Assembly (NCBI GenBank): GCA_024642265.1
Contig: JAHEBL010000002.1
Location: 1,833-65,832 of the forward strand
Direction of reading: 5' to 3'
Origin: Haliea sp.
Lineage (GTDB): Bacteria > Pseudomonadota > Gammaproteobacteria > Pseudomonadales > Halieaceae
Length of the DNA: 64,000 nucleotides
A model generated the notes under the pieces. The model ran no database searches. It was not told the DNA's origin and was given only the letters and a program-made list of their open reading frames with translations. A program made the translations under genes and the position numbers. Numbering within the stretch: the first letter of the stretch is position 1; each line of letters begins with the position of its first letter. This document shows positions 4,772 through 59,809 of the stretch, in pieces.

Positions 4772-4830
4772 CAGGTCTGCTCAGTCGCCGGTGCCAGTAA
4801 TCGCCAAATACCCCTTGACGCTCATTCTAT

Positions 4831-4854
4831 TTGATGTCAACTTAATGACACCAA
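4831..4854 (+). promoter_or_regulatory. 24-bp palindromic operator upstream of the P450
   Basis: TTGATGTCA-N6-TGACACCAA is an inverted repeat with 8 of 9 matching positions per arm and spacer ACTTAA. It ends 30 nt before the ATG at 4884. A nearly identical palindrome lies at 54689-54712, also ending 30 nt before a start codon, and both continue with TTTA. The TetR gene at 6453-7079 is one candidate regulator; no binding data are available. Confidence 0.7.
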
Positions 4855-4883: not shown

Positions 4884-6443
4884 ATGACCTCAAGTACAGC
4901 TGTCGATCCCGTTTATTTCGACCCCTACCAGGTCGATATCACCCGAAATCCCTACCCCGTGTACCAGCGGATGCGCGACGAGGCGCCGCTGTACTACAAC
5001 GCGGAGCATGACTTTTACGCCCTGAGCCGGTACGACGATGTCCGCCCCGGCCACGCGGACCATGCGACCTTCAGCTCGGCACGCGGCGGCATCCTCGAGA
5101 TCATCAAGCAGAACCCGCAGTTGCCACCGGGCATGTTCATTTTCGAAGACCCGCCCCTGCACACAGCCCATCGCAGTATCATTGCGCGCCTGTTTTCACC
5201 TCGCAGAATGCGCGATCTCGAACCCATGGTGCGCGGTTTCACGGTGAGCACACTGGACAAACTCGTCGGCCGCAGGGAATTCGATATCATCGCCGACATC
5301 GGCGCGGAAATTCCGATGCGCGTCATCGGTGCGCTGCTGGGCATCCCCGAGGAAGACCAGCAGACCGTGCGCCAGAATGCGGACGACCGGCTCAGGACCG
5401 AGGCCGGCAAGCCGATCGACTACTCCGTAACGTCCATCGGTGAAATGGGGGGCTTCGAGGAGTACATCGACTGGCGGGAGAAAAACCCGTCCGATGATGT
5501 GATGACCGAGTTTCTGAACGTTGAATTCGTGGATGAAACAGGGGCCAAGCGCAAGCTTACAAGAGAAGAAATCCTGACCTTCTGCAACGTCCTGGCCGGC
5601 GCCGGCAACGAGACCACCAATCGCCTGATCGGCTGGAGTTCCAAGGTGCTCGCCGAAAACCCCGACCAGCGCCGCCTGCTCATCGAGGATCCGTCGCTCA
5701 TTCCCGATGCCGTCGAGGAAATACTGCGCTACGAACCACCCGGGCCCTTCACCGCGCGCTACGTCACCAGTGACGTCGAGTACTACGGGCAGAAAGTCCC
5801 CGCCGGCAGCACGATGATGTTCATGCTGGCCGCCGCCAATCGCGACGAGCGCCGCTTTCCCGATCCCGACCGCTTCGAAATTCGCCGCGACAGGGCGCCG
5901 CACATGACCTTCGGTTACGGTATCCACACCTGCCCTGGCAATGTGCTGGCCAGGCTGGAGGGCCGGATTTTCCTGGAGGAGATGCTCAAGCGCTTCCCCG
6001 AGTGGAATATCGACATGGATCGCGCCGAACTGTCCTGCACCTCCACCGTGCGCGGCTGGGAGACGCTGCCGGCCTATATCGGCGCCAAGCCCCAGCCCCG
6101 TGCCGCCGCACCCGCCCGCACCCCGGTATCGCCCGTGACTGACCCGGCCTCGCTCGCGGGCAGCTGGACCGTCACCGTCGAGGGCCCTACCGGTGCCATG
6201 CCCAGCACCCTGGAAATCACGCACGAGAACGGCCACCTGAGCGGTGTCCAGACCGGCGACGGCGTCGCCACCCCGGTTGAGGAAATTCAGTTCGCCAACG
6301 GTGAGATCGTCTGGACCAACAAGATAGCCAAGCCCCTGAAAATGAACCTGACCTTCACCGGCACGGTGGACGGAGACACCATGGCGGGAAAAGTGAAGGC
6401 CGGATTTATGGGTAAATTCCCCTTCAGCGGGAAGCGGAACTAG
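4884..6443 (+). CDS. Cytochrome P450 with an extra C-terminal beta-rich domain
   Basis: A 519-aa soluble bacterial P450. Residues 1-400 carry the I-helix oxygen-activation segment LAGAGNETTN, the K-helix EEILR and the heme loop FGYGIHTCPG with Cys350 as axial ligand. After an Ala/Pro-rich linker (about 404-420) comes a domain of roughly 95 residues (GSWTVTVEGPTG ... KPLKMNLTFTGTVDGD ... GKFPFSGKR) that normal CYPs lack. A homologous domain ends the Mo hydroxylase at 49665-52445. The ATG at 4884 is chosen over the GTG at 4878 because the operator-to-ATG distance then equals that at the PQQ gene. It needs a ferredoxin and reductase; candidates are at 56817-58392. It is convergent with the TetR gene. 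Substrate unknown. Confidence 0.93.
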   Translation: MTSSTAVDPVYFDPYQVDITRNPYPVYQRMRDEAPLYYNAEHDFYALSRYDDVRPGHADHATFSSARGGILEIIKQNPQLPPGMFIFEDPPLHTAHRSIIARLFSPRRMRDLEPMVRGFTVSTLDKLVGRREFDIIADIGAEIPMRVIGALLGIPEEDQQTVRQNADDRLRTEAGKPIDYSVTSIGEMGGFEEYIDWREKNPSDDVMTEFLNVEFVDETGAKRKLTREEILTFCNVLAGAGNETTNRLIGWSSKVLAENPDQRRLLIEDPSLIPDAVEEILRYEPPGPFTARYVTSDVEYYGQKVPAGSTMMFMLAAANRDERRFPDPDRFEIRRDRAPHMTFGYGIHTCPGNVLARLEGRIFLEEMLKRFPEWNIDMDRAELSCTSTVRGWETLPAYIGAKPQPRAAAPARTPVSPVTDPASLAGSWTVTVEGPTGAMPSTLEITHENGHLSGVQTGDGVATPVEEIQFANGEIVWTNKIAKPLKMNLTFTGTVDGDTMAGKVKAGFMGKFPFSGKRN

Positions 6444-6452
6444 TCAACAGCC

Positions 6453-7079
6453 CTACGGTTTATTGTCGCTGGCCACAGCGTCCTGGATCAGGGATGTAAA
6501 CCAGCTTATCACGCGGGAGAACTGGTCAGTATCGAGGCCCCAGGCAAGCTTCAGGCGATCCTGGGTAGCCGGTTGCCACAGCATATCGAGTATTCCCGCC
6601 AACATCGCCTGCTCCCGTTGTGACCAGGCGGGCGTCGCCTCCGCCACCGCGTCTACCAGCGCCTGTTTGCGCAATTCATCCATCCGGCTCTGGGACGGAT
6701 CGACGGTGATGTCGGGCGCGACCGCAAACGAAGACATGTACCGGAACATATTGATCACGACGTCATCGAAATCCGCCAGACTCAACTTGCCCAGGTCGAC
6801 ACCGGACTGCGCAACCAGCTCCTGCAGCACGGCATCGCGCAGGGCACGCTCCGAGGCAAAATGCCGGTGCACGGTGCGCTCGCTGACCCCGGCTCGTTCG
6901 CCCACGGCTTTTGCAGTCAGGTTTTTCCAGTCCCAGGACGGAAAGCTGTGGACCAGTTCGGTACCCGCGGCGATGATACGCTCCCGGGTTTCGGCAGCCT
7001 GTCGCTTTCGCAATGGGCTGTGGTAGCGGCGTTTTTCGCCGGTCACCTCACCCGAGGTTCTGTCAGTCTGCGATGTCAT
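6453..7079 (-). CDS. TetR/AcrR family transcriptional regulator
   Basis: A 208-aa protein with an N-terminal TetR helix-turn-helix: RERIIAAGTELV starts helix 1 near residue 33 and ERAGVSERTVHRHFASERAL is the recognition region near residues 60-80. The C-terminal half is the divergent ligand-binding domain. TetR proteins of this type repress neighbouring catabolic genes until an effector binds. It lies tail-to-tail with the P450 gene (10-nt gap) and head-to-head with the wax-ester synthase. Its target could be the palindrome at 4831-4854, its own promoter, or the 7080-7350 region. None of these contains an obvious second copy of the 4831 palindrome. Confidence 0.9.
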   Translation of the reverse strand: MTSQTDRTSGEVTGEKRRYHSPLRKRQAAETRERIIAAGTELVHSFPSWDWKNLTAKAVGERAGVSERTVHRHFASERALRDAVLQELVAQSGVDLGKLSLADFDDVVINMFRYMSSFAVAPDITVDPSQSRMDELRKQALVDAVAEATPAWSQREQAMLAGILDMLWQPATQDRLKLAWGLDTDQFSRVISWFTSLIQDAVASDNKP

Positions 7080-19928: not shown

Positions 19929-20795
19929 TCAACCGCAGCGCTGCCTGAACTGGCCGGGGGTCTCTCCGGTGGCGCGACGAAAGGCAAAGCAGAAACTGGA
20001 AGGTGATGCGAAGCCCAGGGTGTAGGCGATCGACTTGACGCTCTGGTCCGCGCGCAACAACTGCCTGGCCTGCTCGACCCGGCTGTCGGCCACGTAATCA
20101 CCGATTGAGCAGTCGCGACTGATGCGGAATCCGCGGGTGAGCTGCCGCACCGAAAGCCGGCACAGGCCGGCCAGCTCGGCCAGGGTGGCGGGTGGACCCC
20201 GCTCGCGCAGCCGTTCGTCGATGATCCGCAGGCGCCAGGGGGCAAGCCCACGACTGCTCTGGCGTTCACTGTGCGCGTTACAGTAGCGTCCCAGTTCGAT
20301 GGCCAGTTGCGCGGCTATCAGTTCCACCAGCATTTCACTGGCGAATCCCGGGCTGCGCGCCTCCTGGGCCAGGCGCAGCATCAGTGAGCGAATGTTACCC
20401 TCGCGGATATCCAGGCCCGCTAGCAGTCCCTGCTCGGTCCACCTCAATTCGCCTTCAAACCAGTCACCCAGGGTGTCCGGACAGAGCTGGCAGACTATCG
20501 AGGACTGCTGGCAACAGCCATCGCTCACGGCCTGCATGGACTCTCCGGGGGGGACCAGGAAGATACTGCCAATGGGCTCGAACCGGCGCGAGTGCCAGCG
20601 GGCCGGGTAACAGGCCCTGGCATTGCCCGGACGGGGTGTCAGGCACAGGTCCACCCGGTAACGGTCCTTGTCGTGGAACACGTTATCCACCGGTTTGGGG
20701 AACTGGAAACGGACCAGCTGCGCGGTCGCGACCGGGACGTGCAACTCGCCCTCGACCATCATCACGTGCTCCGCGGGGCCTGTCACACCGGCCAT
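19929..20795 (-). CDS. AraC family transcriptional regulator
   Basis: A 288-aa regulator. The C-terminal third holds the double helix-turn-helix of AraC/XylS proteins: LAELAGLCRLSVRQLTRGF near residue 205-223 and VKSIAYTLGFASPSSFCFAF near 253-272, with a closing GETPGQFRQ. The N-terminal part is a divergent cupin-like sensing domain (SIFLVPPGESMQAVSD). GGGAG lies 7 nt before the ATG. It follows the second sulfotransferase on the same strand (88-nt gap) and precedes the hydrolase/RND operon in the same direction. It could activate either that operon or the SDR/alcohol dehydrogenase operon at 22256. Confidence 0.9.
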   Translation of the reverse strand: MAGVTGPAEHVMMVEGELHVPVATAQLVRFQFPKPVDNVFHDKDRYRVDLCLTPRPGNARACYPARWHSRRFEPIGSIFLVPPGESMQAVSDGCCQQSSIVCQLCPDTLGDWFEGELRWTEQGLLAGLDIREGNIRSLMLRLAQEARSPGFASEMLVELIAAQLAIELGRYCNAHSERQSSRGLAPWRLRIIDERLRERGPPATLAELAGLCRLSVRQLTRGFRISRDCSIGDYVADSRVEQARQLLRADQSVKSIAYTLGFASPSSFCFAFRRATGETPGQFRQRCG

Positions 20796-26187: not shown

Positions 26188-26238
26188 TTTATACCGCAGG
26201 GCGCATTACTATGCAACAGTGTTGTTGATATGTATAAT
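26188..26238. promoter_or_regulatory. Divergent promoter with shared CAACA(C/G)TGTTG operator
   Basis: For the SDR (minus) the -35 is TTGCAT (26216-26211), the spacer 17 nt, and the -10 TATAAA (26193-26188). For the CoA-transferase (plus) a perfect -10 TATAAT is at 26233-26238. An 11-bp palindrome CAACAGTGTTG at 26214-26224 overlaps the SDR -35 and would also cover the CoA-transferase -35 zone, so one repressor could block both genes. The same operator-to-promoter geometry recurs at 47503-47539. Confidence 0.65.
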
Positions 26239-47502: not shown

Positions 47503-47539
47503 ACTATAACTGCCCGCCCAGTTTTATTCAACAGTGTTG
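47503..47539 (-). promoter_or_regulatory. Thiolase promoter with shared CAACACTGTTG operator
   Basis: On the minus strand the -35 is TTGAAT (47531-47526), the spacer 17 nt and the -10 TATAGT (47508-47503). The 11-bp operator at 47529-47539 starts 3 nt inside the -35, exactly as at the SDR promoter (26188-26224). Outside the core both sites also share CATAT upstream and ATA downstream. The remaining bases of the gap up to the GH3 stop show no gene. Confidence 0.62.
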
Positions 47540-54548: not shown

Positions 54549-54688
54549 CTCGTATGATCCTCCGGGGACTGGAACAGCGTCGGATAATGATAGCGCGGGC
54601 CTGCGGCGACCGGACATGCCTTTTCCGGCAGCGCGGAGTGGCAGCCTGGCAACCCCGCCGCGGAGCTTGCAGTTTACCGCCTCGCGAT

Positions 54689-54712
54689 TTTGTGTCAGCA
54701 TTATGACACCAA
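54689..54712 (+). promoter_or_regulatory. 24-bp palindromic operator upstream of the PQQ dehydrogenase
   Basis: TTTGTGTCA-N6-TGACACCAA with spacer GCATTA is the second copy of the palindrome at 4831-4854, ending 30 nt before the ATG at 54742. Downstream bases TTTA are also identical. The rest of the 193-nt gap between CoxG and the PQQ gene has no other recognised element. Confidence 0.7.
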
Positions 54713-56763: not shown

Positions 56764-56782
56764 TAGTCAACATAGTTGATTA
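56764..56782 (+). promoter_or_regulatory. Palindrome upstream of the ferredoxin reductase operon
   Basis: TAGTCAAC-ATA-GTTGATTA has 7 of 8 matching positions and lies 35 nt before the ATG at 56817. Its core CAAC-N3-GTTG is of the same type as the sites at 26214 and 47529. A -35-like TTGACT is at 56745-56750, but no good -10 was found. Confidence 0.45.
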
Positions 56783-56816: not shown

Positions 56817-58040
56817 ATGAACAGTGAGCACGCGGTCATCGTCGGCGCCAGTCATGCGGCGGGGCAACTGGGCGCCAGCCTCCGGCAGGGCGGCTGGGAA
56901 GGCAGGATCTCCATCGTGGGAGAAGAGGCCATCGCCCCCTACCAGCGACCGCCGCTGTCAAAGGCCTACCTGGCCGGCGAAAAACACAGCGATGAGCTGT
57001 TGATCCGACCGGCGACTTTCTATGAAAAATCCGGAATCGACCTGGTGCTGGGGAGCCGCGTGACCGGGTTGGATTGCCGCGCGAAGACAGTCACCCTGCA
57101 CGACGGCGCCATCATTCCCTACAGTAAACTGGCCCTCACTACCGGTGCCCGGGTGCGTACGCTGTCGCTGCCCGGCCACGACCTGGACGGTGTGTTCTAC
57201 CTGCGCGACCTGGCGGACGTGGACAGCATCCGCGGCTTCGTCGGTCCCGGGAAATCGGCCGTCATCATCGGCGGCGGCTATATTGGCCTGGAAACCGCGG
57301 CGTCCATGCGCAAACTCGGAATGGAAGTGACCGTACTGGAAGCGCTGCCCCGGGTACTCCAGCGCGTGACGGCACCCGAAGTATCCGCTTTTTACAGCCG
57401 GGTGCACGGTGAGGAGGGAGTCAGGATCATCACCGACGCCGCGGTGGACTCACTCGAGGGCAGCGGCAGTATTGAGTCGGTTAAACTGGCGGACGGGACC
57501 AGCCTGAAGGCCGATATCGTGGTAATCGGTGTGGGGGTAATGCCCGCCACGGAACTGGCGGAAGCCGCTGGCCTGGCGGTGGACAACGGCATCGTGGTCG
57601 ACGAATTTGCCCGGACGTCCGACCCGGACATCGTGGCGGCCGGGGACTGCACCAACCACTACAACCCGATTTACGATCGCCGCCTGCGCCTGGAGTCCGT
57701 CCAGAACGCAACCGACCAGGCCAAGACGGCGGCCAGTACGCTGTGCGGCAAGCTCGAAGCCTACCATGCCCTGCCCTGGTTCTGGTCCGACCAGTACGAC
57801 CTCAAACTGCAGATAGCCGGCCTGTCGCAGGGCTTCGACCGGGTGGTGTTACGCGGCCGGAGCGACAGCGGCAGAAGTTTTGCGGCATTTTATTTCAGCG
57901 GCGATCGCCTGCTGGCGGTGGATGCCATCAACAAGCCCAAGGAATTCATGATGGTCCGCCGGGCGCTGACCACAGGCATGACCGCAGATCCGGGAAAACT
58001 GGCAGACGAGGCGGTCGATATCCAACAGGCGTTCGCATAA
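56817..58040 (+). CDS. FAD/NAD(P)-dependent ferredoxin reductase
   Basis: A 407-aa putidaredoxin-reductase-type flavoprotein. HAVIVGASHAAGQLGASL binds FAD, VIIGGGYIGLETAASMRK binds NAD(P)H, and IVAAGDCTNHYNP is the second FAD motif. GGAG lies about 9 nt before the ATG. It is followed 31 nt later by a [2Fe-2S] ferredoxin. The pair can supply electrons to the P450 at 4884 or the Rieske dioxygenase at 60247-62020; which one cannot be told from sequence alone. Confidence 0.93.
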   Translation: MNSEHAVIVGASHAAGQLGASLRQGGWEGRISIVGEEAIAPYQRPPLSKAYLAGEKHSDELLIRPATFYEKSGIDLVLGSRVTGLDCRAKTVTLHDGAIIPYSKLALTTGARVRTLSLPGHDLDGVFYLRDLADVDSIRGFVGPGKSAVIIGGGYIGLETAASMRKLGMEVTVLEALPRVLQRVTAPEVSAFYSRVHGEEGVRIITDAAVDSLEGSGSIESVKLADGTSLKADIVVIGVGVMPATELAEAAGLAVDNGIVVDEFARTSDPDIVAAGDCTNHYNPIYDRRLRLESVQNATDQAKTAASTLCGKLEAYHALPWFWSDQYDLKLQIAGLSQGFDRVVLRGRSDSGRSFAAFYFSGDRLLAVDAINKPKEFMMVRRALTTGMTADPGKLADEAVDIQQAFA

Positions 58041-58071: not shown

Positions 58072-58392
58072 ATGCCATCAGTCACCTTTATCAGCCACGA
58101 CGGTAGAGAACAGGAAGTCCACGTACCCGTCGGTACCACGGTGATGCACGCCGCCATCGATAACGGCGTCAGCGGCATACTCGCCGACTGTGGCGGCGCC
58201 TGCAGCTGCGCCACCTGCCACTGCTTCGTCGATGAGACCTGGACCGCGAGAGTCGGCGGGGCAGACGAGGTGGAAGCGCAGATGCTGGACTTTGTGATCG
58301 ACCCCCAACCCAACAGCCGCCTGAGCTGCCAGATCACGATTACCGACGAACTCGATGGTCTTGTCGTCAGGCTGCCCGCCAGCCAGTTCTGA
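58072..58392 (+). CDS. [2Fe-2S] ferredoxin, adrenodoxin/putidaredoxin type
   Basis: A 106-aa ferredoxin with cluster ligands Cys40, Cys46, Cys49 and Cys86 in the pattern C-x5-C-x2-C...C (DCGGACSCATC, RLSCQ). Two additional cysteines, Cys44 and Cys51, flank the cluster loop, which is unusual. It is between the ferredoxin reductase and an MFS transporter gene and should be the electron carrier for an oxygenase in the window. Confidence 0.95.
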   Translation: MPSVTFISHDGREQEVHVPVGTTVMHAAIDNGVSGILADCGGACSCATCHCFVDETWTARVGGADEVEAQMLDFVIDPQPNSRLSCQITITDELDGLVVRLPASQF

Positions 58393-58438: not shown

Positions 58439-59809
58439 ATGACGAAACCGCCAGAAGGCGCATCAGCCTGGAACCCCGCAACGCCCTACCCCGCCCCTGC
58501 CGTGGGCTGGTATGCAACGATCCTGCTGGCCTTCCTGTACTGGCTGTCGATACTCGACCGCTTCATCATTTCCCTGCTGGTCGACCCCATCAAGCGCGAC
58601 ATGGACATCAGCGATGTGCAGTTCGGCCTGTTGCACGGCTTTGCCTTTGCCATCACCTATGCCCTGTTCGGGCTGATAGCCGGGGCGCTGGCGGATCGCG
58701 CCAATCGCCGCTGGGTGATCTTTGCCAGCGTCGGGATCTGGTCCCTGGCCACCGCCGCCTGCGGTATGGCCCAGCATTTCTGGCAATTGCTGCTGGCACG
58801 GGTGGGTGTGGGGGTCGGCGAGGCCGGCCTGAACCCCAGCGCCACCTCGATGCTTGCCGACCTGTTCCCGCGCGACCGACTGACCTCGGCCATGGCGGTC
58901 TATACCATCGGCGCCACGGTGGGCTCCGGGACGGCCTACCTGCTGGGTGGCCTGATCGTGGACCTGGTGTCGCAGGTACAGAGTTACACACTGCCGCTGG
59001 TCGGCGAGATCCGCTCCTGGCAGGCGGTGTTTTTCATTCTGGGTATTCCCGGCGCACTGCTGGCTTTTATCGTCTTTACCATCCCCGAGCCGGTGCGCAG
59101 GAACCGGCGCAAAGCGCTGGAACAAACCCCGTTCTGGCGCGGAGTGGGCAAGGCGTACCGGGAACTGTTGGAGTTCATGGGTTCACGCAAGCGGTTTTTT
59201 GCCTGCCACTACGCCGGCTTCGGCATCGCCTCCGCGGTTATATCCGGCGCTGGCGCCTGGTATCCGGCCCACATGGGACGGACGTACGGCTGGAGCGCCG
59301 GCGAGATCGGCCTCACCCTGGGCGTTGCCATCGTGATCGGCGGTATCAGCGGCAAGCTGCTGTGCGGCCACATGGTCGATGCGATGTACCGACGCGGTTT
59401 TCGGGATGCCCAGTTCCGCTGGTACGCGGCCTGCCTGGTGGTCGCCACGCCCATCGGGATCGCCGCCACGACCAGTGCCGACCCCTGGATGTTCCTGGTG
59501 GGCATCGCCATCTTCCTGATGCTGCTGTCGCCGGTGGCGGCCTGCTACGCCGCGGCGCTGAACCTGGTGACCCCCAACGAGTTGCGCGGCACAGGCATGG
59601 CGTTCTTCGCATCCACAGCGGGACTGATCGGTATGGGCTCGGGACCTCTGCTGATTGCCGCAGCATCCGACTATCTTTACGGCGGCCCCGCGGACATCGG
59701 CCTGGGAATGGCCACGGTATTCGGGGTTTTCTGCCCTGTCGCGGCGGTGTTGCTGGCACTTGGGTTTCGCGCCATGCGCGAGGCCATGGCGGAAGCGGAA
59801 AACCCGTAG
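58439..59809 (+). CDS. MFS transporter (spinster-like)
   Basis: A 456-aa transporter with about twelve membrane helices and the MFS loop ALADRANRRWVI after helix 2. The start YWLSILDRFIISLLVDPIKR is characteristic of spinster-like bacterial MFS proteins, often encoded in aromatic or sterol degradation clusters. It is 46 nt after the ferredoxin stop, so probably in the same transcript. It may import the aromatic or lipid substrate or export an intermediate. Confidence 0.92.
   Translation: MTKPPEGASAWNPATPYPAPAVGWYATILLAFLYWLSILDRFIISLLVDPIKRDMDISDVQFGLLHGFAFAITYALFGLIAGALADRANRRWVIFASVGIWSLATAACGMAQHFWQLLLARVGVGVGEAGLNPSATSMLADLFPRDRLTSAMAVYTIGATVGSGTAYLLGGLIVDLVSQVQSYTLPLVGEIRSWQAVFFILGIPGALLAFIVFTIPEPVRRNRRKALEQTPFWRGVGKAYRELLEFMGSRKRFFACHYAGFGIASAVISGAGAWYPAHMGRTYGWSAGEIGLTLGVAIVIGGISGKLLCGHMVDAMYRRGFRDAQFRWYAACLVVATPIGIAATTSADPWMFLVGIAIFLMLLSPVAACYAAALNLVTPNELRGTGMAFFASTAGLIGMGSGPLLIAAASDYLYGGPADIGLGMATVFGVFCPVAAVLLALGFRAMREAMAEAENP

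Follow-up and report, generated by a model that had tools for sequence, protein, structure and literature searches.

A 24-bp palindrome shared by a cytochrome P450 gene and a PQQ dehydrogenase gene in Haliea sp. as the probable operator of a small TetR-type regulon

Two loci and a common palindrome

The window, by which we mean the whole 64,000-nucleotide stretch of Haliea sp. DNA analysed here, carries two loci, 50 kb apart, that share a 24-bp palindrome, M1. Their principal features are these:

4831-4854, plus strand: M1, candidate operator of the P450 gene, TTGATGTCA-ACTTAA-TGACACCAA; kept upstream of orthologues in 13 genomes
4884-6443, plus strand: cytochrome P450, 519 aa (Pfam p450, E=1.5e-25), with a C-terminal extension of ~110 aa
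6453-7079, minus strand: TetR-family regulator, candidate reader of M1 (TetR_N 27.0 bits, Pfam gathering cut-off 24); convergent with the P450 gene
53805-54548, minus strand: coxG-type gene (Pfam COXG, E=1.8e-29), the first divergent gene across M1 from the PQQ dehydrogenase
54689-54712, plus strand: M1, candidate operator of the PQQ dehydrogenase gene, TTTGTGTCA-GCATTA-TGACACCAA
54742-56730, plus strand: PQQ-dependent dehydrogenase, 662 aa (Pfam PQQ, E=1.5e-211)
56817-58040, plus strand: ferredoxin reductase (Pfam Pyr_redox_2 and Reductase_C)
58072-58392, plus strand: 2Fe-2S ferredoxin (Pfam Fer2)
58439-59809, plus strand: MFS transporter, the last gene in the PQQ cluster; identical gene order in genome G004

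Leftward from the PQQ-side M1, the coxG-type gene and a xanthine-dehydrogenase-family (xdh-type) operon run divergently to the PQQ dehydrogenase. The P450 of the window has no adjoining redox-partner gene, which makes the PQQ unit, with its reductase and ferredoxin, the natural source of candidate partners; the two proteins, which the preliminary description did not mention, are plausibly its electron donors. The C-terminal extension of the P450 (window 6108-6440, ~110 residues) has no Pfam match and is common to the orthologues in G003, G004, G010 (C55) and Ch67, the others stopping near residue 405. A ferredoxin gene adjoins the P450s of G010 (C12), G151 and G153, which are without the extension and stop near residue 405.

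The M1 consensus is TTGGTGTCA-N6-TGACACCAA, with which each window site agrees at 17 of 18 arm positions. TTTA directly follows both sites, and the two 24-bp inverted repeats reported in the preliminary description are present at their assigned positions. Allowing up to three mismatches, not one match arose in 100 dinucleotide-preserving shuffles of the window, and the whole genome (4,197,594 bases in 242 contigs, an assembly that is 97.69% complete) holds just two sites, both of them in the window, both intergenic and each upstream of a gene. The motif is therefore not scattered through the genome, a pattern that the preliminary description had named as counting against it. The same description had attached weight to the equal distance between M1 and the two start codons. 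This distance is indeed 29 nt at both window sites (ATG at 4884 and 54742), but it is not conserved: M1 stands 16-36 nt before the start codons of P450 and PQQ dehydrogenase orthologues, for which reason we regard the equality as incidental, and certain other M1 genes lie farther off (~70 nt for a third P450 gene of G010, more than 100 nt for the xdh-type gene of G002 and the reductase gene of G153). We have accordingly rejected equal spacing as a signal. What is fixed instead is the distance from M1 to an upstream TTGAC or TTTAC element, together with a T within the spacer.

Conservation of M1 across genomes

In a family sample of 140 Halieaceae genomes, P450 relatives (E ≤ 1e-60) occur in 12, and M1 lies just 5' of a P450 gene of at least 56% identity in nine (G000, G002, G003, G004, G010, G147, G151, G152, G153); no M1 was found at the second P450 copies of G002 (59%) and G003 (58%) or at copies of 37-44% identity. 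Exact matches to a degenerate M1 pattern are confined to the same nine of the 140 genomes, a result that speaks for specificity and not discovery, because the pattern was drawn from those very sites. Additional sites stand in G004 5' of both the PQQ dehydrogenase gene and an inserted ecdysteroid-kinase-like gene, in G002 upstream of the FAD subunit of an xdh-type operon, in G153 in the space from the TetR gene to the ferredoxin reductase gene, and in G010 (Mangrovimicrobium sediminis, 99% complete), where three sites precede P450 genes, the third encoding a P450 of only 27% identity. The ecdysteroid-kinase-like gene of G004 (L028:12109-13266, Pfam EcKL), preceded by an M1 of its own, separates the PQQ dehydrogenase from the coxG-type gene and is missing from the corresponding place in the window.

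A wider scan with TTGAC-N11-degenerate M1 against contigs of 84,980 species returned 13 matches in 12 stretches, 11 of them before a P450 orthologue, one before a PQQ dehydrogenase orthologue and one unrelated (Syntrophaceae). Seven of these stretches belong to family genomes from which the pattern came and five are new; in four of the new ones (five matches) M1 precedes a P450 or PQQ gene. The carriers outside the 140-genome sample are the gammaproteobacterial MAGs Ch67 and DeMMO5_2, a Solimonas MAG and Pseudonocardia eucalypti, an actinobacterium, and a pattern search of these four genomes found M1 confined to the P450/PQQ-associated genes described here. In Ch67 and DeMMO5_2 the P450 and PQQ dehydrogenase genes are adjacent, each with its own M1; the second DeMMO5_2 site has one deviating base and was missed by the pattern and recovered by a weight matrix. 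The Solimonas locus (L159) is compact, comprising TetR, P450, M1, a coxG-like gene (recognized by eye), xdh genes, a second M1, an xdhC-type gene and the PQQ dehydrogenase. Pseudonocardia eucalypti has the arrangement TetR-M1-P450, its M1 lying immediately past the TetR stop codon, and this looks like the result of inter-phylum transfer. The Pseudonocardia palindrome (L148, L160) is longer, CAGAATTGGTGTCA-N6-TGGCACCAATTCTG.

In total, M1 precedes P450 orthologues in 13 genomes that are partly related to each other (nine Halieaceae, two other gammaproteobacterial MAGs, the Solimonas MAG and Pseudonocardia eucalypti) and the PQQ dehydrogenase in five of the 13 (G000, G004, Ch67, DeMMO5_2 and Solimonas, in the last by way of the xdhC-type gene). 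The proposal, made from the window alone, that the P450 and the PQQ dehydrogenase form one regulon gains support from this comparison, which takes in the adjacent P450 and PQQ genes in L138 and L141 and the compact Solimonas locus, where the TetR gene also lies. We left out of the count, as background, two-mismatch matches in G028, G090, G100, G107, G111, G125, G146 and G157, further matches in G028 and in G054 and G057, the last two outside the family, as well as 38 one-mismatch matches in 28 genomes without a site-bearing P450 and one in G002 (C713); a reversed control pattern gave 28 one-mismatch matches in genomes outside the nine, against 38 for M1. Inspection of the gene context of the excluded matches in G146 and G157 found no adjoining P450 relative.

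Promoter elements overlapping the palindrome

When 22 M1 sites are aligned in gene orientation, TTGAC occupies the positions 16 to 12 bases 5' of the palindrome at 15 of them and TTTAC at three more; neither is found at the xdh-type site of G002, the third P450 of G010, the reductase site of G153 and the xdhC/PQQ site of Solimonas. A 17-base spacer places the next hexamer inside the palindrome, where it reads CANNNT (once CGNNNT). Its last T is present at all 22 sites, and a 23rd site agrees, whereas the mirror column is A in just 11 of 22. TTGAC and the centre T were obligatory in the pattern that retrieved five of the 22 sites (two in L138, one each in L141, L143/L159 and L148/L160); with these five set aside, TTGAC is found at 10 of 17 sites, TTTAC at three and the centre T at all 17, one of which, the G153 reductase site, first surfaced through a pattern containing the T. 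A TG precedes the putative -10 hexamer at nearly all sites, and a TG in this position is a feature of extended -10 promoters. The corresponding elements in the window would be:

4815-4820, plus strand: putative -35 hexamer TTGACG of the P450 promoter, 10 bp 5' of M1
4838-4843, plus strand: putative -10 hexamer CAACTT within M1, after a 17-bp spacer and preceded by TGT, assigned from conservation
54673-54678, plus strand: putative -35 hexamer TTTACC of the PQQ promoter, spaced as at the P450 site; TTTACC also stands at two G004 sites
54696-54701, plus strand: putative -10 hexamer CAGCAT within M1, assigned from conservation in the alignment

At both window sites a consensus promoter scan reported minus-strand candidates and nothing on the plus strand, so this is an assignment from conservation. 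The T/A asymmetry within an otherwise symmetrical element fits a -10 hexamer laid over an operator and suggests that M1 overlaps the promoter core, an overlap that predicts repression. It is possible to draw the promoter differently, with the left M1 arm as the -35 element and the AT-rich stretch past the right arm as the -10, a placement that accounts for neither the upstream TTGAC nor the centre T.

Two further readings of M1 bear on these observations. M1 could be the site of an activator, such as a CRP/FNR-type dimer. CRP sites have five-base half sites with an N6 spacing, and TGTCA-N6-TGACA shares it; however, M1 lies over the presumed -10 and not 5' of the -35, a position that suits a repressor, a global regulator would be expected to have many sites where this genome has two in 4.2 Mb, and a scan of 49 window ORFs gave no CRP-type match, so that we hold an activator to be improbable. 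Alternatively, the palindromes could be products of chance, or promoter sequence that is conserved though no dedicated regulator reads it. In favour of this, part of the conservation (TTGAC and the centre T) would belong to the promoter and not to an operator. The reading is very hard to reconcile with an arm symmetry that several gammaproteobacterial lineages and an actinobacterium retain, or with the placement of 12 of the 13 database matches before the same two gene families, and we consider it barely credible.

The candidate regulator and the proposed switch

The TetR-family protein encoded at 6453-7079 had been named in the preliminary description as the nearest candidate regulator. Its orthologues (E ≤ 1e-15) occur in eight of the 140 family genomes, all of them M1 carriers, and in none of the 131 family genomes without M1 (Fisher p=3e-12, relatedness ignored); at E ≤ 1e-20, none was found in 368 other sampled genomes of the class. 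Each of the four M1 genomes outside the 140 has one orthologue, with profile E-values of 1e-80 to 1e-93, the Pseudonocardia protein having itself been a row of the search profile. TetR_N scores of three orthologues are 35.9 (Pseudonocardia), 24.0 (G161) and 21.9 (Solimonas, below the cut-off of 24). The TetR gene adjoins an M1-bearing target in nine of 12 genomes (G000, G002 across a contig break, G003, G004, G147, G152, G153, Solimonas and Pseudonocardia); it adjoins a ferredoxin reductase-ferredoxin-PQQ operon in G151 and G153, and a thiolase gene, away from M1, in Ch67 and DeMMO5_2. Orthologues are thus present in 12 of the 13 M1 genomes, and the regulator does not accompany the operator everywhere: in Mangrovimicrobium sediminis (G010) no orthologue was found at E ≤ 0.01, and none by profile at E ≤ 1e-6, despite three M1 sites. 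Co-occurrence (12/13) and adjacency (9/12) therefore speak for the original nomination and G010 speaks against it. We regard the 6453 protein as the best candidate reader of M1, and rather probably the true one. M1 as its autoregulatory site was considered and rejected, since the palindrome is absent from the promoters of all 12 TetR genes.

A second palindromic motif, CAACAnTGTTG, complicates this assignment. In the window it is exact at 26214-26224, between divergent SDR and CoA-transferase genes, and at 47529-47539, before a thiolase gene, and has one mismatch at 56768-56778, before the ferredoxin reductase. The same thiolase, SDR/CoA-transferase and ferredoxin reductase promoters bear it in several family genomes, as do related promoters in Ch67, DeMMO5_2 and Solimonas, which points to another regulator acting on this catabolic cluster. 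Five relatives (G003, G147, G151, G152, G153) have the PQQ dehydrogenase downstream of a ferredoxin reductase whose promoter carries CAACAnTGTTG (exact in two, one mismatch in three); only G153 of these five also has M1 at the reductase promoter.

M1 could accordingly be a real operator read by a regulator encoded elsewhere, with the 6453 protein reading CAACAnTGTTG and controlling the wider catabolic cluster. G010, which retains M1 without the TetR, would fit such an arrangement, as would the presence of CAACAnTGTTG not only at cluster promoters but also in the intergenic region beside the TetR gene in six of 12 genomes (exact in G002, G151 and G153, one mismatch in G147, G152 and G161). Against it, with the TetR gene located elsewhere (the window, L130, L131, L135), the motif keeps its place at the promoters of the thiolase and the ferredoxin reductase; in the intergenic stretches searched next to the TetR gene of five genomes (G000, G003, G004, Solimonas and Pseudonocardia) it is absent at up to two mismatches; and Pseudonocardia has the TetR-M1-P450 arrangement with no CAACAnTGTTG within the 20 kb examined. 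We consider this division of roles unlikely, though it is the likeliest of the alternatives.

We posit, with a confidence of about 70%, that M1 serves as operator in a small regulon of its own, in which release of a TetR-family repressor would induce the P450 and the PQQ unit together. The M1 sites, their conservation, the gene content and the co-occurrence of the TetR gene are read directly from the sequences; the switch built on them would operate as follows. A dimeric TetR-family repressor, most likely the 6453-7079 protein, would bind the 24-bp M1, which is predicted to cover the -10 of a sigma70-type promoter whose -35 would lie 10 bp upstream. Because M1 appears to cover the -10 region, RNA polymerase would be kept off both promoters, leaving the P450 gene and the PQQ dehydrogenase-ferredoxin reductase-ferredoxin-MFS unit repressed. 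A compound of the pathway would release the repressor, and release would induce together the P450, the proteins that probably pass electrons to it and the presumably periplasmic dehydrogenase, which could oxidise an alcohol product. Other bacteria have this switch too, along with the two genes and the likely repressor, and joint activation of the two oxidation steps is therefore probable.

Repressors of this kind are familiar from other P450 systems. In Pseudomonas putida the camphor P450 operon, with its ferredoxin and reductase partners, is repressed by the TetR-family protein CamR, and the partner genes adjoin the P450. The present case resembles it in its TetR-family candidate repressor, its apparently catabolic P450 and its probable ferredoxin and reductase partners; here, in contrast, the reductase and ferredoxin lie 50 kb off in the PQQ unit and would be tied to the P450 by the common operator. 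Another parallel is Bm3R1/FatR of Bacillus, a TetR-family repressor dedicated to the CYP102 P450 and encoded by a gene linked to it, whose 18-bp palindrome lies between the start site and the Shine-Dalgarno sequence and occurs once per genome (PMC3814354). Likeness extends to a palindrome near the P450 promoter, few sites per genome and a linked TetR gene (PMC3814354). In contrast, M1 is a different, 24-bp palindrome, seemingly over the -10 and common to a second, unlinked gene; no M1 is seen at the regulator's own promoter; and the window P450 appears to need separate redox partners where CYP102 is self-sufficient. The case would probably belong with the known TetR repressor-P450 regulons typified by FatR and CamR, set apart from them by a different operator, the probable promoter overlap and the second unlinked target. 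A literature search by title and the start of the abstract found nothing on the M1 system, and the listed papers containing the arm string bear unrelated titles. The 6453 protein also has a weak helix-turn-helix likeness to the gamma-butyrolactone receptors ScbR and AvaR1 (NCBIfam E=0.00021; PDB AvaR1 E=3.8e-5); membership was rejected, the score being 21.5 against an NCBIfam cut-off of 150 bits and the match spanning about the first 90 residues.

If the proposed regulon is real, an orphan P450 is tied across 50 kb to its probable electron-transfer proteins and a dehydrogenase, with a testable regulator named; the inducer would offer a route to the substrate of a pathway, as yet uncharacterised, of Halieaceae and other bacteria, and M1 would serve as a sequence tag for this P450 subfamily in other genomes. 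More tentatively, at somewhat less than even odds, M1 and the TetR gene may have travelled between gammaproteobacteria and actinobacteria as a portable TetR-operator-P450 cassette, its operator capturing varied partner promoters from lineage to lineage while other lineages shifted the PQQ and ferredoxin genes to the CAACAnTGTTG circuit. Two-step oxidation would then stay co-regulated through repeated rewiring of the regulon. The captured promoters would be those of the PQQ dehydrogenase, the xdh-type hydroxylase, the ferredoxin reductase and a kinase.

An AraC-type regulator is encoded at window 19929-20795, within the same catabolic cluster, and an AraC-type gene of Solimonas (L159:7297-8358) lies near two CAACAnTGTTG sites. 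With such genes both in the window's cluster and near the Solimonas motif sites, AraC proteins are possible readers of CAACAnTGTTG.
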